From positions 186,001 to 250,000 of the forward strand of contig NZ_JAAGWZ010000004.1 of assembly GCF_010686725.1 (NCBI RefSeq): DNA of 64,000 nucleotides, given 5' to 3'. Origin of the DNA: Galbitalea soli (lineage in GTDB: Bacteria; Actinomycetota; Actinomycetes; Actinomycetales; Microbacteriaceae). This document shows positions 3,325 through 11,033 of this stretch, piece after piece (position 1 is the first letter of the stretch; every line of letters begins with the position of its first letter). Position numbers and translations under genes: made by a program. The notes below the pieces were generated by a model that worked only from the letters and a program-made list of their open reading frames with translations, searched no databases and was not told the origin of the DNA.

Positions 3325-4539
3325 GTGGCAAAGATCAAGGTTGAAGGAACGGTCGTCGAGCTCGATGGCGATGAGATGACCCGCATCATCTGGCAGAAGA
3401 TCAAGGACACCCTGATCCACCCCTACCTCGATGTCACCCTCGAGTACTACGACCTCGGCATCGAGCACCGCGACGCGACCGACGACCAGGTCACCATCGA
3501 CGCGGCCCACGCCATCCAGAAGCACGGCGTCGGCGTGAAGTGCGCGACCATCACGCCCGACGAGGCCCGCGTCGAGGAGTTCGGCCTCAAGAAGATGTGG
3601 AAGAGCCCGAACGGCACGATCCGCAATATCCTCGGCGGCGTCATCTTCCGCGAGCCGATCATCATCTCCAACATCCCGCGACTGGTGCCGGGCTGGAACA
3701 AGCCGATCATCATCGGCCGCCACGCCTTCGGCGACCAGTACCGCGCGACCGACTTCGTCTTCAAGGGCGCGGGCAAGCTCACCGTGCAGTTCACCCCGGA
3801 TGACGGCTCCGAGCCCATCAAATTCGACGTGTACGACGCGCCCGACGACGGCGTCGCGCAGGTGCAGTACAACCAGGACGCCTCGATCCGCGACTTCGCG
3901 CGCGCGAGCCTCAACTACGGCCTCTCGCGCAACTACCCGGTGTACCTCTCCACCAAGAACACGATCCTCAAGGCCTACGACGGCCGATTCAAGGACATCT
4001 TCCAGGAGATCTTCGAGACCGAGTTCAAGGAACAGTTCGACGCCGCGGGCCTCAGCTACGAGCACCGGCTCATCGACGACATGGTCGCCTCGGCCATGAA
4101 GTGGGAGGGCGGCTACGTCTGGGCCTGCAAGAACTACGACGGCGACGTGCAGAGCGACACCGTGGCCCAGGGCTTCGGCTCCCTCGGCCTCATGACGAGC
4201 GTGCTCTCCACCCCCGACGGCAAGGTCGTCGAGGCGGAGGCCGCGCACGGCACGGTCACCCGGCACTACCGCCAGCACCAGGCGGGCAAGCCCACGAGCA
4301 CCAACCCGATCGCCTCGATCTACGCGTGGACCCGCGGTCTCGCGCACCGCGGCCTGCTCGACGGCAACGAGGCGCTCATCCAGTTCGCCAACACGCTCGA
4401 GGACGTCGTCATCACCTCCGTCGAGGCCGGGCACATGACTAAGGACCTCGCGCTCCTCGTCGGTCCCGACCAGAAGTGGGAGACCACCGAGGAGTTCCTC
4501 GACACGCTCGACAAGAACCTGGCCGCGCGCCTGGCCTGA
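3325..4539 (+). CDS. icd: NADP-dependent isocitrate dehydrogenase, homodimeric eukaryote-like type
   Basis: The 404-residue product converts isocitrate to 2-oxoglutarate and CO2, making NADPH in the TCA cycle. The N-terminus [19 protein letters not shown] and the substrate-binding block [13 protein letters not shown] (about residues 93-105) are typical of the type-II homodimeric enzymes found in eukaryotes and many actinobacteria, not of the E. coli type or the 80-kDa monomeric type. The family's catalytic Asp region is present around [24 protein letters not shown] (residues 252-275). Length is as expected. The GTG start has AGGAGAGG upstream. The gene is monocistronic, preceded by a palindrome overlapping its -35 region. 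Confidence 0.96.
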
Positions 4540-4580
4540 CCCGGTCGCCGGGGTGCGGCGGTCGGATGACCGGCTCGCCG

Positions 4581-4680
4581 CATCCCGCGCCCCGCATCCC
4601 GCGCGCCGCCCCCCGCGCCCCGCGCCCCGCCGGCGCCCCGGCGCCCCCGCACCCGGCGCCCCCGCACCCGGCGCCCGTCG
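4581..4680. repeat. C-rich low-complexity tract with 15-bp tandem repeats
   Basis: The 303-base gap between icd and the protease gene contains a strand-biased run made of CCCGCGCC- and CCCGCATCC-like words, ending in two exact copies of GCGCCCCCGCACCCG (4641-4655 and 4656-4670) and a partial third. No coding potential is evident. The rest of the gap holds the protease promoter region. Confidence 0.6.
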
Positions 4681-4803
4681 CCCCACCGGCGGGGTCCCGC
4701 GCCCCACTTGTGCCCCAGCCAGCGACGAGCGCCGCCCCACCCTCGTTTGAGCGATAGCGCGAATCGTGCCCACTGGGTAGCCTGAACAGGCCGGACCCGA
4801 TTG

Positions 4804-4821
4804 CATGAGACGTCTCTCATG
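4804..4821. promoter_or_regulatory. inverted repeat upstream of the subtilase
   Basis: CATGAGA and TCTCATG are perfect 7-bp arms around CGTC, 22 bases before the GTG start. A TAGCCT at 4782-4787 upstream would serve as a -10 element, so the repeat would lie in the early transcript or act as an operator. Regulator unknown. Confidence 0.45.
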
Positions 4822-4842
4822 TGGAGATGACCTGGGGGAATC

Positions 4843-7800
4843 GTGCGACAACCGTTACGAGCGCGCGTTCGCGCGCGCCGTGGCGCCGCCGGTGCGCCCC
4901 GCGCCGTGTTCGCCGCCCGCGCGCCTCGCGCGGTGTCGGCGGCCCTCGCCGTCAGCCTGGCGCTCACCGCCGTCTTCGCGGCCGGCTCCGCGAGCGCCGC
5001 ACCCGCCAGCACGCCGACCGCCACGCCGGTCGCCACGCCGAGTCCGACGCCTACCAGCACGCCTGTCGTCGCACCCGCCGGCACTCCGACTGCCACTCGG
5101 ACCGCCACTCCGACCGCCACGCCGACTGCCGCTCCGCCGCGACCCGCCCGTCCGGCATCCGCCGCGCTTGCCGCGCTCGCCGATGCGCCCAAGCACTACC
5201 GCGCGGGCACCTACATCGTGCGGCTCAAGGCCGATCCCACCTCCACCTACGCGGGCGGCACCGCGGGCTTCGTCGCCACGCGGCCCGCCGCGGGTCGTCA
5301 GCTCGACGCGCACTCCGCGGCGGCGACCCGGTACTCGCAGCACCTCGCGAGCGCGCAGACCGCGCTCACTCGCCGCTATGGCGTCTCACCGCTCTACCGC
5401 TACACGCTTGCCTACAACGGCTTCGCGGCGCACCTCACCGCTGACCAGGCGAGGGAACTCGCGGCCGACCCGGCCGTCGCCGCCGTCGTGCCCAACCGAA
5501 TCCTGAAGGTGCAGTCGAGCGGCTCCGCCCCGCTCACCAGCCAGAGCTCGCTGAGCTACCTCGGCATCAGCACCTCGAGCGGGGTGTGGCACGCGCTGGG
5601 TGGCGTGGGGAAGGCCGGGCGCGGGATCGTGATCGGCGATCTCGACACCGGCATCGCACCCGAGAACCCGTCGTTCGCGGGCGAGCCGCTCGGCACGACG
5701 CCCTCGAGCGGCACGCCCTACCTCAGCGGCAACACGGTCGTGTTCACCAAGAGCGACGGCCGGGTGTTCCACAGCACCCGCATCGGCGCGGCCGACGGGT
5801 GGACGGACGCCGACTACAGCACCAAGATCGTGGGCGCCAAGTTCTACGTCGCCGGGTTCGGGGCGTCGAACGTCGGCTTTCTGAACGGCGGTTCGCAGGG
5901 TATCCGCGAGTACCTGTCACCGCGTGACGGCGCCGACCACGGTTCGCACACCGCGAGCACGGCGGCCGGCGACTACGGGGTCGACGCCACCGTCGGCGGG
6001 ATCGACTACGGCGGCATCAGCGGAGTCGCCCCCGCCGCCAAGATCGCGATGTACAAGGTGTGCTGGGACGGCACGGCGGCCGACGAGAGCCTCGACGGAT
6101 GCGCGACGGCCGATATCGTCGCGGGCATCAATCAGGCCGTCGCCGACGGTGTCGACGTGCTCAACTACTCGATCGGCGGTGCGCCCGCGACGAGCGTGTA
6201 CTCGCCCACCGACGAGGCCTTCCTCAACGCTTCCGCGGCCGGCATCTTCGTCGCAGCTGCGGCGGGCAACTCGGGGCCCGACAATTCCACGCTCGACAAT
6301 GCGGCACCCTGGGAGACCACGGTCGCCGCCAGCACGATGCCCGCGTTCGAAGCCACGCTCGTGCTGGGCAACGGCCGCCGCTACGCGGGGGCCAGCATCT
6401 CTGTCACCGCGAACCCGGCGACCCAATTGCGCAACCGGCCGATCGCGATCGCCCAGTGGCTGCGGGTCACCGGCGCGACCGCGCTCGACGCCTCACTCTG
6501 CAAGGCGGGCACGCTCGATCCGGCGCGGGCGGCGGGAAAGATCGTCGTCTGCGATCGCGGCGGCAACGCGCGCACCGCGAAATCCGCCGAGGTCAAGCGC
6601 GCGGGCGGGGCGGGGATGATCCTGCTCAACGACGCCGCCGACTCGGGTGACGTCGACCTCGACACCCACAGCGTGCCGACCATCCACATCGACTACCCGA
6701 GCCGCTCCGCCATCCGCGCCTACGCCTCGCAGCCGACCGCGACCGCCAGCTTCCGCCTCGGCAACCTGACGCCGCAGACGACCGCCGTGCCGCAGGTCGC
6801 CAGCTTCTCGAGCCGCGGGCCGGCACTCGCCAACGGCTCCGACGTGCTCAAGCCCAACATCACGGCGCCCGGGGTCTCCATCCTCGCCGCGTCCAACAAC
6901 GCACCCGGCGGGGCGGGGCGCTGGGAGTTCCTCTCCGGTACCTCTATGGCGACCCCGCACATCGCGGGTCTCGCCGCCCTCTACCTCAGCGCCCACCCCC
7001 GGGCGACGCCCGCCGAGATCCAGTCCGCCCTCATGACGACCGCCCGCAATACCGTCACGGTCTCCGGGGCGCTCGTGCGCGACCCGTTCTCGCAGGGCGC
7101 GGGAGAGGTGAATCCGCGACAGTTTCTGAACCCCGGGCTGGTCTACCTGGCGGGCCCGACCGACTGGAAGCGCTACCTGCTCGGCGCTCGCGCGGTCTCG
7201 CGGTCGGCGGCGGGCTTCGCGGGGCTCAGTCCCGTTGATCCGAGCAACCTCAACTCCGCATCCATCGCCATCGGCGACTTCGCGGTGAAGCAGACCGTCA
7301 CCCGTCGCGTCACCTCCACGGCACCCGGCGTCTACCACGTCGCGGCCTCGGTGCCGGGGCTCGGCGTGAAGGTGCGCCCCAAGTTGCTCAGCTTCACGCG
7401 CGCGGGGCAGACCAAGACCTTCACCGTCACCCTCGTGCGCAAGGGTGCCCGGCTCGACGAGTACCGCACCGGCTACCTCAGCTGGAAGAAGCTGCACAGC
7501 TCGCTCGTCGTCAAGATCCCGATCGCCGTGCACCGCACCATCCTGCAGGCGCCCGCCACCGTCACCTTGCACGCGGCCACGGGGCACGCGGATGTCCGGC
7601 TCATCGCCGGCGCTGTGAGGTCGACGATTCGCATCCAGGCGACCGGGCTCGCCGCGGAGCAGACGAAGGCCGCCACCGCCGTCAGCGGTGGGCATCAGCA
7701 GTTCGTGCACCACCTCGGCGCGGGCAACCAGTACCTGCGCTTCACCACGGAGCTGCCCAGGGCGCGCTCCGACACCAACCTCGATCTGCTCGTGTTCTAC

Positions 7801-8199
7801 TACCCGCGCGGGGCGCTCGTTCCGCCGCCCACCGCCGACCTCAGCGCCTACGACCTGAACGACCTCGTCGGCATCTCCGCCGACACGACGAGCAACGAGG
7901 TCGCTGACGTGGTGACCACGCAGGAGCAGTACCGACGCGGCGGCTACTTCGTCGTCTACGTCGCCGACACCGCCGCGCCGAGCTCGCCCGTCGCCTACAC
8001 CTCGGGCCTCTACGCGATCGGCGTCCACACCAACACGGGGCGGTACCACTCCAACCACACACGCCTGCACGCGAAGGGCGGAACACCGATCAGCTACCGA
8101 CTGAGCTGGAGTGGGCTCGCCCCGCACCGCTCCTACCTTGCGTTCGTGTTCTACGGCAGCGCGCCCGTGTTCACGACCGTCCAGCTCACCATCCCGTGA
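4843..8199 (+). CDS. secreted S8-family subtilisin-like serine protease, 1118 residues
   Basis: An Arg-rich N-terminus and hydrophobic stretch ending ASA (about residue 55) form a signal peptide. Next comes a Thr-Pro repeat linker (residues 56-105), then an I9-type inhibitor propeptide (about 122-223, HYRAGTYIVRLKA to VVPNRILKV). The catalytic domain follows, with Asp in IGDLDTG (about 268), His in DHGSHTAS (about 369) and Ser in SGTSMATPH (about 701). A protease-associated domain is inserted at about 500-620 and a fibronectin-like C-terminal region follows the catalytic Ser. This layout matches large extracellular subtilases that degrade proteins. The GTG start has GGGGGA upstream. No sortase motif or C-terminal helix is seen, so it is probably released into the medium. 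Confidence 0.94.
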   Translation: MRQPLRARVRARRGAAGAPRAVFAARAPRAVSAALAVSLALTAVFAAGSASAAPASTPTATPVATPSPTPTSTPVVAPAGTPTATRTATPTATPTAAPPRPARPASAALAALADAPKHYRAGTYIVRLKADPTSTYAGGTAGFVATRPAAGRQLDAHSAAATRYSQHLASAQTALTRRYGVSPLYRYTLAYNGFAAHLTADQARELAADPAVAAVVPNRILKVQSSGSAPLTSQSSLSYLGISTSSGVWHALGGVGKAGRGIVIGDLDTGIAPENPSFAGEPLGTTPSSGTPYLSGNTVVFTKSDGRVFHSTRIGAADGWTDADYSTKIVGAKFYVAGFGASNVGFLNGGSQGIREYLSPRDGADHGSHTASTAAGDYGVDATVGGIDYGGISGVAPAAKIAMYKVCWDGTAADESLDGCATADIVAGINQAVADGVDVLNYSIGGAPATSVYSPTDEAFLNASAAGIFVAAAAGNSGPDNSTLDNAAPWETTVAASTMPAFEATLVLGNGRRYAGASISVTANPATQLRNRPIAIAQWLRVTGATALDASLCKAGTLDPARAAGKIVVCDRGGNARTAKSAEVKRAGGAGMILLNDAADSGDVDLDTHSVPTIHIDYPSRSAIRAYASQPTATASFRLGNLTPQTTAVPQVASFSSRGPALANGSDVLKPNITAPGVSILAASNNAPGGAGRWEFLSGTSMATPHIAGLAALYLSAHPRATPAEIQSALMTTARNTVTVSGALVRDPFSQGAGEVNPRQFLNPGLVYLAGPTDWKRYLLGARAVSRSAAGFAGLSPVDPSNLNSASIAIGDFAVKQTVTRRVTSTAPGVYHVAASVPGLGVKVRPKLLSFTRAGQTKTFTVTLVRKGARLDEYRTGYLSWKKLHSSLVVKIPIAVHRTILQAPATVTLHAATGHADVRLIAGAVRSTIRIQATGLAAEQTKAATAVSGGHQQFVHHLGAGNQYLRFTTELPRARSDTNLDLLVFYYPRGALVPPPTADLSAYDLNDLVGISADTTSNEVADVVTTQEQYRRGGYFVVYVADTAAPSSPVAYTSGLYAIGVHTNTGRYHSNHTRLHAKGGTPISYRLSWSGLAPHRSYLAFVFYGSAPVFTTVQLTIP
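5005..5155 (+). repeat. Thr-Pro coding repeat in subtilase linker
   Basis: Short degenerate repeats of ACGCCGACCGCC type encode a run of TPTATP, TPSPTP and TPVVAP units directly behind the signal peptide. Such linkers are often O-glycosylated spacers in secreted actinobacterial proteins. Confidence 0.6.
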
Positions 8200-8216
8200 C
8201 CCGGAGCCCGGAACGA

Positions 8217-9728
8217 TCAGTAGCCCGAGAAGTAGTCCGTCCTCACACGGCGCACACCGGCGCGACGAAGCGCCGGCCGCAACGCGTGCACGAGCGCGGG
8301 CGGTCCGGAGAGGAACGCGTGCCGCGATGCGGCGTCGGGCACCGCGCGGGTCAGGAGCTCCGCGGTGAGCCCGCCGCGTCCGAGGTACTCCCAGTGGGCG
8401 GGAAGCACGGCGGGCGGATGGGGCGCGACGAGCAGCACGCGGTGCCCGGCGGCGGCCAGCGCGTCACCGTAGGGAAGGTCATCCGCCGAGCTGTTGGCCC
8501 AGACGAGGACGAGGTCGCGCTTCTCACCGGTCGCGGCGAGCTCCCGGAGTTGACTCACGTAGGGGGTGATTCCGATGCCGGAGGCGACGAAGAGCAGCGG
8601 AGCGGCGGGGTCTGCGGGTAGAACGAAGTCCCCGCCCACCGAGGTCGCCGAGATCGTCGCGCCCGGCTCGAGCTGCATCAGAGCGCGTTTGAAACTGCTC
8701 GTGCGCTCGTAGACGCGCAGGCCGATGCTCACGATTCCCGTGTCGGTCGGTGCTGACGCGATGCTGAAGGTGCGGCGCACGCCGCGCACGTCGGCGCCGC
8801 GATGGGGGAGATTGAGCTCCAGATACTGGCCGGCCTCGAATCGCAGCGGGCGGATCGGCCGGAACGAGAACTCCCAGGCCTCGCCGCCCAGCGGTTTGCG
8901 GCCGAGAAGCACGAGGCGGATTCCGCGGCGCTGACCCACCGCGAAGGAGAGGGCGTTGCCCACGAGGAGCGCGAGCGCGTAGCTCCACACGAACACCCCC
9001 ACGTGGAACTGCGCCGCGAACAGCACGCCCACGACCGCCGCGACCGCGAGCTGCTGCCAGCGCTTCGGCGGCAAGGTGAGGGGTTCGCTCAGCATGAAGC
9101 CCGCGAAGAAGACGATGGGGAAGGAGCCGAGCGCCGTCGTGAGTGCGGGGAGGGCGGTCATCCCGGTCTGCACCAGGATCACGACGGTGCCCACGGTGGC
9201 GACCAGGACGAACACGCCGCCGAGGGCGAGGTGCCGGGTGCGGTGCAGGATGACCAGCCCACCGATCACCACGAGCGGCAGCAGCCACGGCGTCGCCACC
9301 CACCACGTGGGCGTCGCGCTGGGCAGAACGAGCGCCACGACCGCGGCGCCGGTCGCGGCGGGATTGAAGACGTGCCGGCCGCGCACGGCCAGCAGGTACT
9401 TGCTGGCGCTCGCGACGATGGAGGCCAGCGCGACTCCGCCCAGCGTGACCGGGTCGAGAGCCGGGTAGAAGAGCAGGGCGAGGATCAGCGCGGTGATGAG
9501 CGACGACTCGGAGTGCGGGCGCACGCGCACGATGGCCGCGAACAGCCGGTTGCTCAGGTAGGTCACGACGAGCGCCGTCGCGGTCACGGCGAGGATCGCG
9601 AGCGGCGGCACCGCGATCTGCCCGGTGAGGGCGACGAGCACCGCCTCGATGAGGATGCCGGCGAGGCACAGCAGGATGAGCCGGTACATGGTGACCCGGC
9701 CGGTGAGCTCGTCCAGCCAGCGCGTCAT
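8217..9728 (-). CDS. RnfD/NqrB-like membrane protein fused to ferredoxin-NADP reductase domain
   Basis: The 503 residues combine two modules. Residues 1-275 are hydrophobic, with about nine membrane helices resembling the RnfD/NqrB subunit, including RGRHVFNPAATGA and FAGFMLSEPLTLPP. Residues 276-503 are a flavodoxin-reductase module: FEAGQYLELNLPH and RRTFSIASAP bind FAD, and FVASGIGITPYVSQLRE binds NAD(P). The protein should take electrons from cytoplasmic NAD(P)H and pass them into or across the membrane. It overlaps apbE by four bases (ATGA), and the FMN-binding lipoprotein lies first in the operon, so the likely acceptor is flavin attached outside the membrane. The classic covalent-FMN motif is not clear in the membrane half. 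Confidence 0.88.
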   Translation of the reverse strand: MTRWLDELTGRVTMYRLILLCLAGILIEAVLVALTGQIAVPPLAILAVTATALVVTYLSNRLFAAIVRVRPHSESSLITALILALLFYPALDPVTLGGVALASIVASASKYLLAVRGRHVFNPAATGAAVVALVLPSATPTWWVATPWLLPLVVIGGLVILHRTRHLALGGVFVLVATVGTVVILVQTGMTALPALTTALGSFPIVFFAGFMLSEPLTLPPKRWQQLAVAAVVGVLFAAQFHVGVFVWSYALALLVGNALSFAVGQRRGIRLVLLGRKPLGGEAWEFSFRPIRPLRFEAGQYLELNLPHRGADVRGVRRTFSIASAPTDTGIVSIGLRVYERTSSFKRALMQLEPGATISATSVGGDFVLPADPAAPLLFVASGIGITPYVSQLRELAATGEKRDLVLVWANSSADDLPYGDALAAAGHRVLLVAPHPPAVLPAHWEYLGRGGLTAELLTRAVPDAASRHAFLSGPPALVHALRPALRRAGVRRVRTDYFSGY

Positions 9729-10594
9729 AGGAACAGCTCCCCGTTGAATCGTTCGGATCGGCCGACACGGCCGTCGGGCATCATTCTCGCGTACTCGAAC
9801 TCGGGCACCACCTCCGAGAGGCGGGCCTCGCTCGCGAAGAACAGTGCTGTGGCGAGGGCGTCGGCCTCCAGTGCGCTGTCGGCCCGAACCCAGGTCGCGG
9901 CGACGGTGCGCGTGGGCTCACCGGAGGTGGCATCGAGGATGTGGTGCAGCCCGTCGCTCCACGCGCGTCGGCCGGGTGCCGAGGCGCACAGGGCCCCGTT
10001 CGACAGTTCGTAGACGCCGATCGCCATGGTCGGGTCCCAGGGATGCTCGAGCCCCACCCGCACCGTGTCGGGGCCGCGATGCAGCAGGTCGCCACTCGCG
10101 TCGATGAGGTAGTCGTCGACGCCGCACTCGCGCAGGAGATCCGCCACCAGATCGATCAGGTACCCCTTGCCCGCGGCGCCGATGTCGAGCACGACCGGCG
10201 TGAGGGTGGTGAGGTGGCTGCCATCCCAGGAGATCGCCTCCTCCCAGCTGGGGATGCGCGTTGCCGCCCCCGCGCGGGCCCGCAGCGTGTAGTCGCGGTC
10301 GTAGCCGAGCTCTTCGAGGCGCTGCCCGACGAGCGGGTTCATCGCGCCGTCGGTCGCGTCGTAGAGCAGCCGGTAGAGGTCGAGGAGGGGTCCGGCGTCA
10401 TCCGGCAGCCGCCAGCGGCCGGGTTCGCGGGTGATGCGGCTGACGAGCGAGTCGGCGCGGAACCGCGAGTAGTCGCGATCAAAACGCGCGATGCGCTCGT
10501 GGATGGCGGCGACCGTGGTCGCCGGCAGGGGTTCCGCGGTCTCGATCGCCCACGGGACCCCGATCGCCTCGAAGCGCAGCTCAGGCCTTGGCAT
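9725..10594 (-). CDS. apbE: FAD:protein FMN transferase (ApbE family)
   Basis: The 289-residue protein has ApbE landmarks: FDRDYSRFRADSLVSRI near residue 35, LDIGAAGKGYLIDLVADLL (about 136-154), DYLIDASGDLLHRG, and HHILDATSGEPT near 230, which contributes Mg2+ and flavin contacts. ApbE splits FAD and attaches FMN through a phosphoester to Ser or Thr of partner proteins, usually outside the membrane. No signal peptide is apparent on this one. The gene starts 14 bases inside the end of the FMN-binding lipoprotein gene and ends overlapping the RnfD-like gene, so enzyme and substrates are made together. Confidence 0.93.
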   Translation of the reverse strand: MPRPELRFEAIGVPWAIETAEPLPATTVAAIHERIARFDRDYSRFRADSLVSRITREPGRWRLPDDAGPLLDLYRLLYDATDGAMNPLVGQRLEELGYDRDYTLRARAGAATRIPSWEEAISWDGSHLTTLTPVVLDIGAAGKGYLIDLVADLLRECGVDDYLIDASGDLLHRGPDTVRVGLEHPWDPTMAIGVYELSNGALCASAPGRRAWSDGLHHILDATSGEPTRTVAATWVRADSALEADALATALFFASEARLSEVVPEFEYARMMPDGRVGRSERFNGELFL

Positions 10595-11033
10595 CGGCCT
10601 TGATGGCCTCCACCGCCGCGTTGAAGCCCTGGCTGGTGAGGGAGGAGCCCGCGACGCGCGAGACGTTCAGAGCGTCGAGCTTCTTGCCCACGACGACGCC
10701 CTGGATTCCGCTGATGAAGCGCGCCTCGTAGGCGGTCGCGGTGGGGTCGGCGGTGACGGTCTTCACGGTGACCGCCGTCACGACGTTGCTCTTCAGCGTG
10801 AGCTGCACGCTGATCGTCTCCTGGCCGCCCGGAGAGGCGTAGCTGCCGTTCTTCGTGTACGTGCCGTCTTTGTAGCTGCCGCCCGAACTCGTGGTGCCGC
10901 CCGTGGACTGGTCGGCCTGGGCGCTCGACGCGCAGCCCGCGAGCGAGCCGAGAAGCGTGGCGCCGGCCAGTACGGCGAACGCGGGGCGGAGGGCGGCGGT
11001 GCGGGCGGCGGAGCTGCGGGCGGTGGGGGTCAT
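10581..11033 (-). CDS. FMN-binding-domain lipoprotein
   Basis: A lipoprotein signal with the lipobox LAGC at Cys34 is followed by a Ser/Gly-rich linker and an FMN-binding domain (about residues 60-150) ending AGSSLTSQGFNAAVEAI. In related domains the corresponding block reads SGATYTS and its Thr carries FMN; here Ser takes that place, which ApbE enzymes can also use. It is therefore a probable covalent flavoprotein on the outer face of the membrane and the partner of the two downstream genes. I chose the ATG at 11033 because GAGGA lies seven bases upstream and the signal peptide is then complete; the frame is open for 22 more codons. Confidence 0.88.
   Translation of the reverse strand: MTPTARSSAARTAALRPAFAVLAGATLLGSLAGCASSAQADQSTGGTTSSGGSYKDGTYTKNGSYASPGGQETISVQLTLKSNVVTAVTVKTVTADPTATAYEARFISGIQGVVVGKKLDALNVSRVAGSSLTSQGFNAAVEAIKADAKA

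Follow-up and report, generated by a model that had tools for sequence, protein, structure and literature searches.

The three overlapping genes at positions 8217-11033 of the window (the whole 64,000-nucleotide stretch of DNA analysed here) are likely to form an NQR/RNF-like module for one-way electron export, in which a dedicated ApbE would attach FMN to Ser131 of a surface lipoprotein, probably before the lipoprotein leaves the cytosol. What stands out most here is that the ApbE has no export leader, whereas its predicted target is exported.

Gene organisation, folds and distribution of the trio

The anatomy of the trio is established with high confidence. The open reading frames lie exactly where the original prediction had placed three overlap-coupled genes, and they run on the minus strand in the order lipoprotein, apbE, membrane fusion; folds, sequence and synteny bear out the identity of all three parts. 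The first gene (10581..11033, minus strand, as are all features of the trio given below) encodes a lipoprotein of 150 amino acids with an FMN_bind fold, an NqrC/RnfG-like soluble partner recognised from its reading frame, its fold match and the PF04205 matches of its orthologues. It overlaps by 14 nt (10581..10594) with apbE (9725..10594), whose product is an FAD:protein FMN transferase of 289 amino acids and a clear member of PF02424 (132.5 bits, cut-off 25.6), with a match to TM1553 (1vrm) at E 1.8e-26. The stop codon of apbE and the start codon of the third gene share an ATGA overlap of 4 nt (9725..9728). The third gene (8217..9728) encodes a membrane NAD(P)H:flavin oxidoreductase fusion of 503 amino acids, assigned from its reading frame and homologues.

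Residues 13-267 of the fusion (8928..9692) form an RnfD/NqrB-like membrane domain of about ten helices, and residues 268-503 (8220..8927) form an NqrF/ferredoxin-reductase-like FAD-NAD(P)H domain. In Pfam, the fusion matches NAD_binding_1 (PF00175) at 29.4 bits (cut-off 22) and NQR2_RnfD_RnfE at E 2.4e-6 and 27.6 bits, which is 0.1 bit short of the cut-off of 27.7. AlphaFold models were built from alignments of the window and locus proteins. In that of the fusion (mean pLDDT 86.7), some ten membrane helices precede the FAD/NAD domain. Residues 13-267 of this model resemble RnfD of the Azotobacter RNF complex (8ahx_D; Z 24.4, rmsd 2.7, 237 aligned), and residues 265-502 resemble NqrF FAD domains (7qu5; Z 23.6, rmsd 2.7, 231 aligned). 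The covalent-flavin motif [ST]GA[ST] is absent from the membrane domain in 18 aligned sequences, and PF01794, the ferric-reductase-like heme domain, has no match in the fusion or in 18 aligned family members.

Fold, sequence and synteny thus back, with fair confidence, the proposed chain from cytoplasmic NAD(P)H through the RnfD/NqrB-like domain to an outside flavin. NAD(P)H would reduce the FAD that the C-terminal domain of the fusion carries on the cytoplasmic side, electrons would cross the membrane via the RnfD/NqrB-like domain, probably through a non-covalently bound flavin, and the FMN of the surface lipoprotein would be reduced and then pass electrons to an extracytoplasmic acceptor. 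The chain had been proposed to lack the other Rnf/Nqr subunits, and this agrees with the host genome (99.98% complete), in which the two families searched, PF02508 (NqrD/E-RnfA/E) and PF05896 (NqrA), have no match. The reverse route, by which an outside donor would reduce NAD(P)+ by way of the lipoprotein flavin, is conceivable, as flavin chains can be reversible and Rnf-type complexes operate both ways. However, the search for PF02508 and PF05896 found no ion-pumping partner for such an uphill transfer and the neighbouring genes include none for an outside dehydrogenase, so that inward flow is very improbable.

Sixty related genomes were searched for the fusion, and homologues were counted at E < 1e-50. 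Homologues that are full-length or nearly so are present in 20 of the 36 genomes from the host genus and family, as well as in two genomes from another family of the order. The order lipoprotein-apbE-fusion is kept in nearly all of them; in G021, apbE is found at another site of the genome. When GTDB contigs were scanned as well, the set grew by genomes of Arthrobacter, Pseudarthrobacter, Microbacterium, Herbiconiux, Aeromicrobium, Nocardioides, Ktedonobacteria and candidate phyla. Since the gene order is conserved in some 20 genera, a chance association of the trio is excluded. An apparent joining of ApbE and the membrane fusion in a single 760-aa open reading frame (L037:6467-8815) was rejected as a probable frameshift because the junction reads out of frame.

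The predicted flavin site and the compartment of its loading

The lipoprotein begins with a Sec/SPII signal peptide (10932..11033) that ends in the lipobox LAGC at Cys34. The lipobox and the hydrophobic core were recognised by rule, and Cys34 is invariant in 18 aligned sequences. The signal has no twin-arginine motif, and a Tat-like RR occurs in only one of the 18 aligned lipoproteins; as far as sequence can tell, the signal peptides of the module lipoproteins are of the Sec type. The match of the lipoprotein to FMN_bind (PF04205) is sub-threshold (E 0.04, 15 bits against a cut-off of 22), and ten of the 18 family members scanned match this family at E up to 1, the best at 6.8e-6. The domain at residues 55-150 resembles domain 2 of SaFMN3 (8p2a; Z 10.3, rmsd 2.1, 88 aligned), and the model also resembles holo NqrC (4xa7; Z 8.6). 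The fold alone is not diagnostic, since it is small and unrelated proteins also match at Z 7-8; a Foldseek search with the lipoprotein gave no match at E <= 0.001.

The predicted FMN attachment residue, assigned by alignment to SGATxTS, is Ser131 (codon 10641-10643) within the motif A128-G-S-S131-L-T-S134 (10632..10652). The original prediction had noted Ser in AGSSLTS in place of the usual Thr. The serine is indeed present, but it is not peculiar to this genome: G129, S130, S131, L132 and T133 are invariant in the 18 aligned lipoproteins, and the motif of the actinobacterial branch is [A/S]-G-S-S-L-T-[S/G], with single departures in the wider set (ASSSLTS in L052, AGSSLSS in L078). Since [A/S]GSSLT is nearly invariant across the actinobacterial branch, Ser131 is a lineage feature. 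Members of the Chloroflexi/CPR branch mostly have SGATxTS at the same position. Two loci of Candidatus Uhrbacteria (L070 and L079) have an ApbE and an SGSSLTP motif like those of the actinobacterial branch, other CPR members having SGATxTS, and this likeness suggests horizontal transfer.

The consensus for flavinylation is D-x-x-[S/T]-G-A-[S/T], in which the last residue is modified and Thr is preferred; a change from Thr to Ser lowers flavinylation in a tested case (PMC12052999). In the site of the lipoprotein, S-R-V-A-G-S-S, the D, S/T, A and T of this consensus are replaced by S, A, S and S, respectively. Flavinylation of the lipoprotein is therefore open to real doubt, since just the Gly and a hydroxyl residue at the last position are kept. 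The lipoprotein may then hold its flavin loosely or have none, with ApbE serving another, cytosolic target, and the fact that the two proteins begin in different compartments (see below) would fit such an arrangement. The strict coupling of the genes speaks against it, as do the near invariance of GSSLT, the canonical SGATxTS that the Chloroflexi/CPR relatives have at this position, and the genomes in which a single ApbE adjoins its lipoprotein target; a lipoprotein with no covalent flavin is accordingly quite unlikely.

A signal peptide or lipidation site is typical of most characterised ApbEs. Neither of these, nor a membrane segment, was found in the ApbE of the trio. Its N-terminus is the start of the fold (MPRPELRFEAIG...), which is recognisable from about residue 8, so that a signal peptide would not fit in front of it, and there is no in-frame start codon farther upstream. 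To score leaders across loci, a heuristic rule was used that calls an uncharged stretch of 12 residues with a mean hydropathy of at least 1.5 upstream of the fold; a cut-off of 2.4 is too crude for the Ala-rich signals of actinobacteria, and the rule at 1.5 recovers 54 of 54 FMN partners. By this rule a hydrophobic leader is present in all 54 FMN partners and in none of the 54 module ApbEs, and both traits occur together in 52 loci. The rule works on ApbE, since it calls a leader in half (9/18) of the ApbEs of a phylum-wide draw.

No leader was called in the 21 ApbEs of a class draw (Actinomycetes, loci L148-L189) or in 18 ApbEs from twelve module-bearing genomes. Therefore, the missing leader appears to be a wider trait of these bacteria and not specific to the module, and the question of compartment, judged from these class-wide counts, is likewise wider than the module. 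The host genome encodes four ApbEs, and every one is leaderless. In five relatives (G007, G011, G028, G032 and G034) the leaderless module ApbE is the sole ApbE, and in G011, a single contig, it is matched by a single recognised FMN_bind gene. Genomes of this kind, with one ApbE and one recognised target, make loading before export directly testable.

Because ApbE has no export signal, the enzyme and the lipoprotein start in different compartments. The proposal that this ApbE loads the lipoprotein is therefore upheld in part: the enzyme family and the gene pairing agree with it, but simple loading does not follow when the ApbE is leaderless and the target is exported. In published accounts, ApbEs with exported targets sit outside the membrane and require exported FAD, and cytosolic, leaderless ApbEs have been described for cytosolic fumarate reductases; no paper on a leaderless ApbE with exported targets was found in the open-access literature. 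If the trio followed the characterised, extracytosolic and FAD-export-dependent enzymes, its ApbE would leave the cell by a non-classical route and flavinylate the lipoprotein outside, with a separate transporter supplying the FAD there, as happens in Listeria. This is unlikely given that a hydrophobic N-terminal leader is missing from every one of the 54 module ApbEs and that no flavin exporter is encoded in the trio.

Since the ApbE lacks a leader, its action is most likely cytosolic. It would act on the unfolded pre-lipoprotein with cytosolic FAD as the source, attaching FMN to Ser131, and Sec export and lipidation of the lipoprotein would come after the attachment. A motif of seven residues is enough for ApbE (PMC12052999), and an unfolded lipoprotein is therefore a plausible substrate. 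Loading before export may thus be the simplest and most likely reading, as cytosolic FAD is at hand and the short motif suffices; its chances are about even. The broader claim, that in the Actinomycetes and the Chloroflexi/CPR carriers of the module exported proteins are flavinylated in the cytosol and the cofactor-bearing chain passes through Sec and not Tat, is likewise evenly balanced. If loading is cytosolic, no export of FAD is needed, and Sec must carry a flavin-modified chain, for which no documented case was found in the literature.

The host genome holds three further ApbE loci. L192 (G000:C1:379000-389000) encodes at 4012-9533 a ferric-reductase-like membrane protein, a secreted FMN_bind protein of 171 amino acids and a leaderless ApbE, and it appears to be an MsrQ-like system; a two-component pair comes next, and then a 214-aa membrane protein with a VIT1-like look. 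L191 (G000:C1:58000-69000) encodes at 3688-6795 a leaderless ApbE, a ferric-reductase-like membrane protein of 210 amino acids and a NuoF-like protein (PF01512, PF10589); the place of a recognisable FMN_bind partner is taken by a short, secreted open reading frame rich in Ser and Thr. L190 (G000:C4:22000-34000) encodes at 4441-7816 a leaderless ApbE together with a membrane reductase that carries a fused 2Fe-2S domain. It has no recognisable FMN_bind gene, two secreted low-complexity open reading frames precede these genes, and the locus may have an ApbE target not yet recognised as such.

Electron acceptor and genomic neighbourhood

The leading guess for the electron acceptor is ferric iron or another reducible metal. 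No acceptor is encoded at the locus, and the flanking genes differ between genera. A gene for an Nramp transporter lies directly downstream of the module in L069, L070 and L079, operons for ZnuA and an ABC-3 permease adjoin it in L050 (from the host's own family) and L075, and VIT1 is present in six published clusters (PMC8238504). It appears from these neighbours that metal reduction is favoured in some lineages. They would also suit a narrower reading, in which the module serves metal uptake specifically, as a ferric (or manganese) reductase. However, most loci, the host locus included, have neither a metal transporter nor a terminal reductase as a neighbour, a search upstream of the lipoprotein gene gave no DtxR/IdeR-like iron box, and in L080 genes for a DsbA-like protein and VKOR adjoin the module instead. 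A dedicated role in metal uptake is therefore held only tentatively, with the chances somewhat against it.

Iron, zinc, Rex and LexA boxes were sought upstream of the lipoprotein genes and no convincing site in common emerged; CRP-like hits and a single weak LexA-like one can be put down to chance. No FMN riboswitch or other RNA was found in the upstream region. Neighbouring P-type ATPases are of several unrelated types and were left uncounted as support. Genes for ECF sigma factors occur near the module in about four loci (L034:5562-6787, L069:3127-3609, L046 and L049), in some of them together with a possible anti-sigma gene. In the window, a large secreted protease of the S8 family (4843-8199, plus strand) is convergent with the fusion gene, and a similar S8 protease gene is found near the module in L003, L033, L036, L040 and L041. 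The S8 protease, isocitrate dehydrogenase and a housekeeping block in Arthrobacter recur near the module, but this looks like lineage synteny.

Comparison with known flavin-based systems

By sequence and modelled fold, the trio is a member of the published 'NQR/RNF-like' type of flavinylation system and not a new type. In the definition of Meheust et al. (2021; PMC8238504), a flavinylation gene cluster belongs to this type if it encodes a membrane domain of the NqrB/RnfD kind that is followed by PF00175 at the C-terminal end. These authors reported 127 clusters, chiefly from Actinobacteria and CPR, and proposed that electrons pass one way, from NAD(P)H to an FMN domain outside the cytosol. The complex of Ktedonobacter racemifer is modelled in a 2024 preprint (PMC10979944), which reports for this system that the covalent-flavin Thr of NqrB/RnfD is not conserved. 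The trio shares with this system the NqrB/RnfD-NAD fusion and the FMN-binding protein as two functional subunits, together with ApbE, a membrane subunit that has no covalent flavin site, the actinobacterial and CPR distribution, and the proposed one-way export. It differs in that its sequences are mostly near or below the defining Pfam cut-offs, in the actinobacterial motif [A/S]GSSLT, and in the leaderless ApbE, of which no discussion was found in the literature.

The trio adds well-defined members to the NQR/RNF-like system, for which no experimental characterisation was found in the literature, and it is common in the host family and its Micrococcaceae relatives, in which the Pfam cut-offs miss most copies. 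Since PF03116 at E 0.01 matches only four of 18 family members of the fusion, the system is probably commoner than the 127 clusters.

Na+-NQR and RNF complexes share with the trio the NqrB/RnfD fold, the NqrF FAD domain and the NqrC/RnfG-type FMN domain. In contrast, no homologues of NqrA, NqrD/E or RnfA/E were found in the genome of the trio, which itself would form a single path, with a membrane subunit that lacks the covalent flavin motif and no evidence of ion pumping. The MsrQ-like systems of Actinobacteria likewise combine a fusion of NAD(P)H reductase and membrane carrier with an exported FMN_bind protein and a leaderless ApbE, but their membrane domain is of the heme-type, ferric-reductase-like kind, whereas that of the trio is RnfD/NqrB-like.

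With the extracellular electron transfer system of Listeria (PplA/FmnB), the trio has in common a surface lipoprotein that is flavinylated (here by prediction), a Gram-positive envelope and a dedicated ApbE-type enzyme. FmnB is extracytosolic and needs exported FAD, whereas the ApbE of the trio is leaderless and the membrane donor is a different one. The leaderless ApbE bears on the general assumption, stated for Listeria and in reviews, that exported flavoproteins of this type receive their flavin outside the cell from exported FAD.
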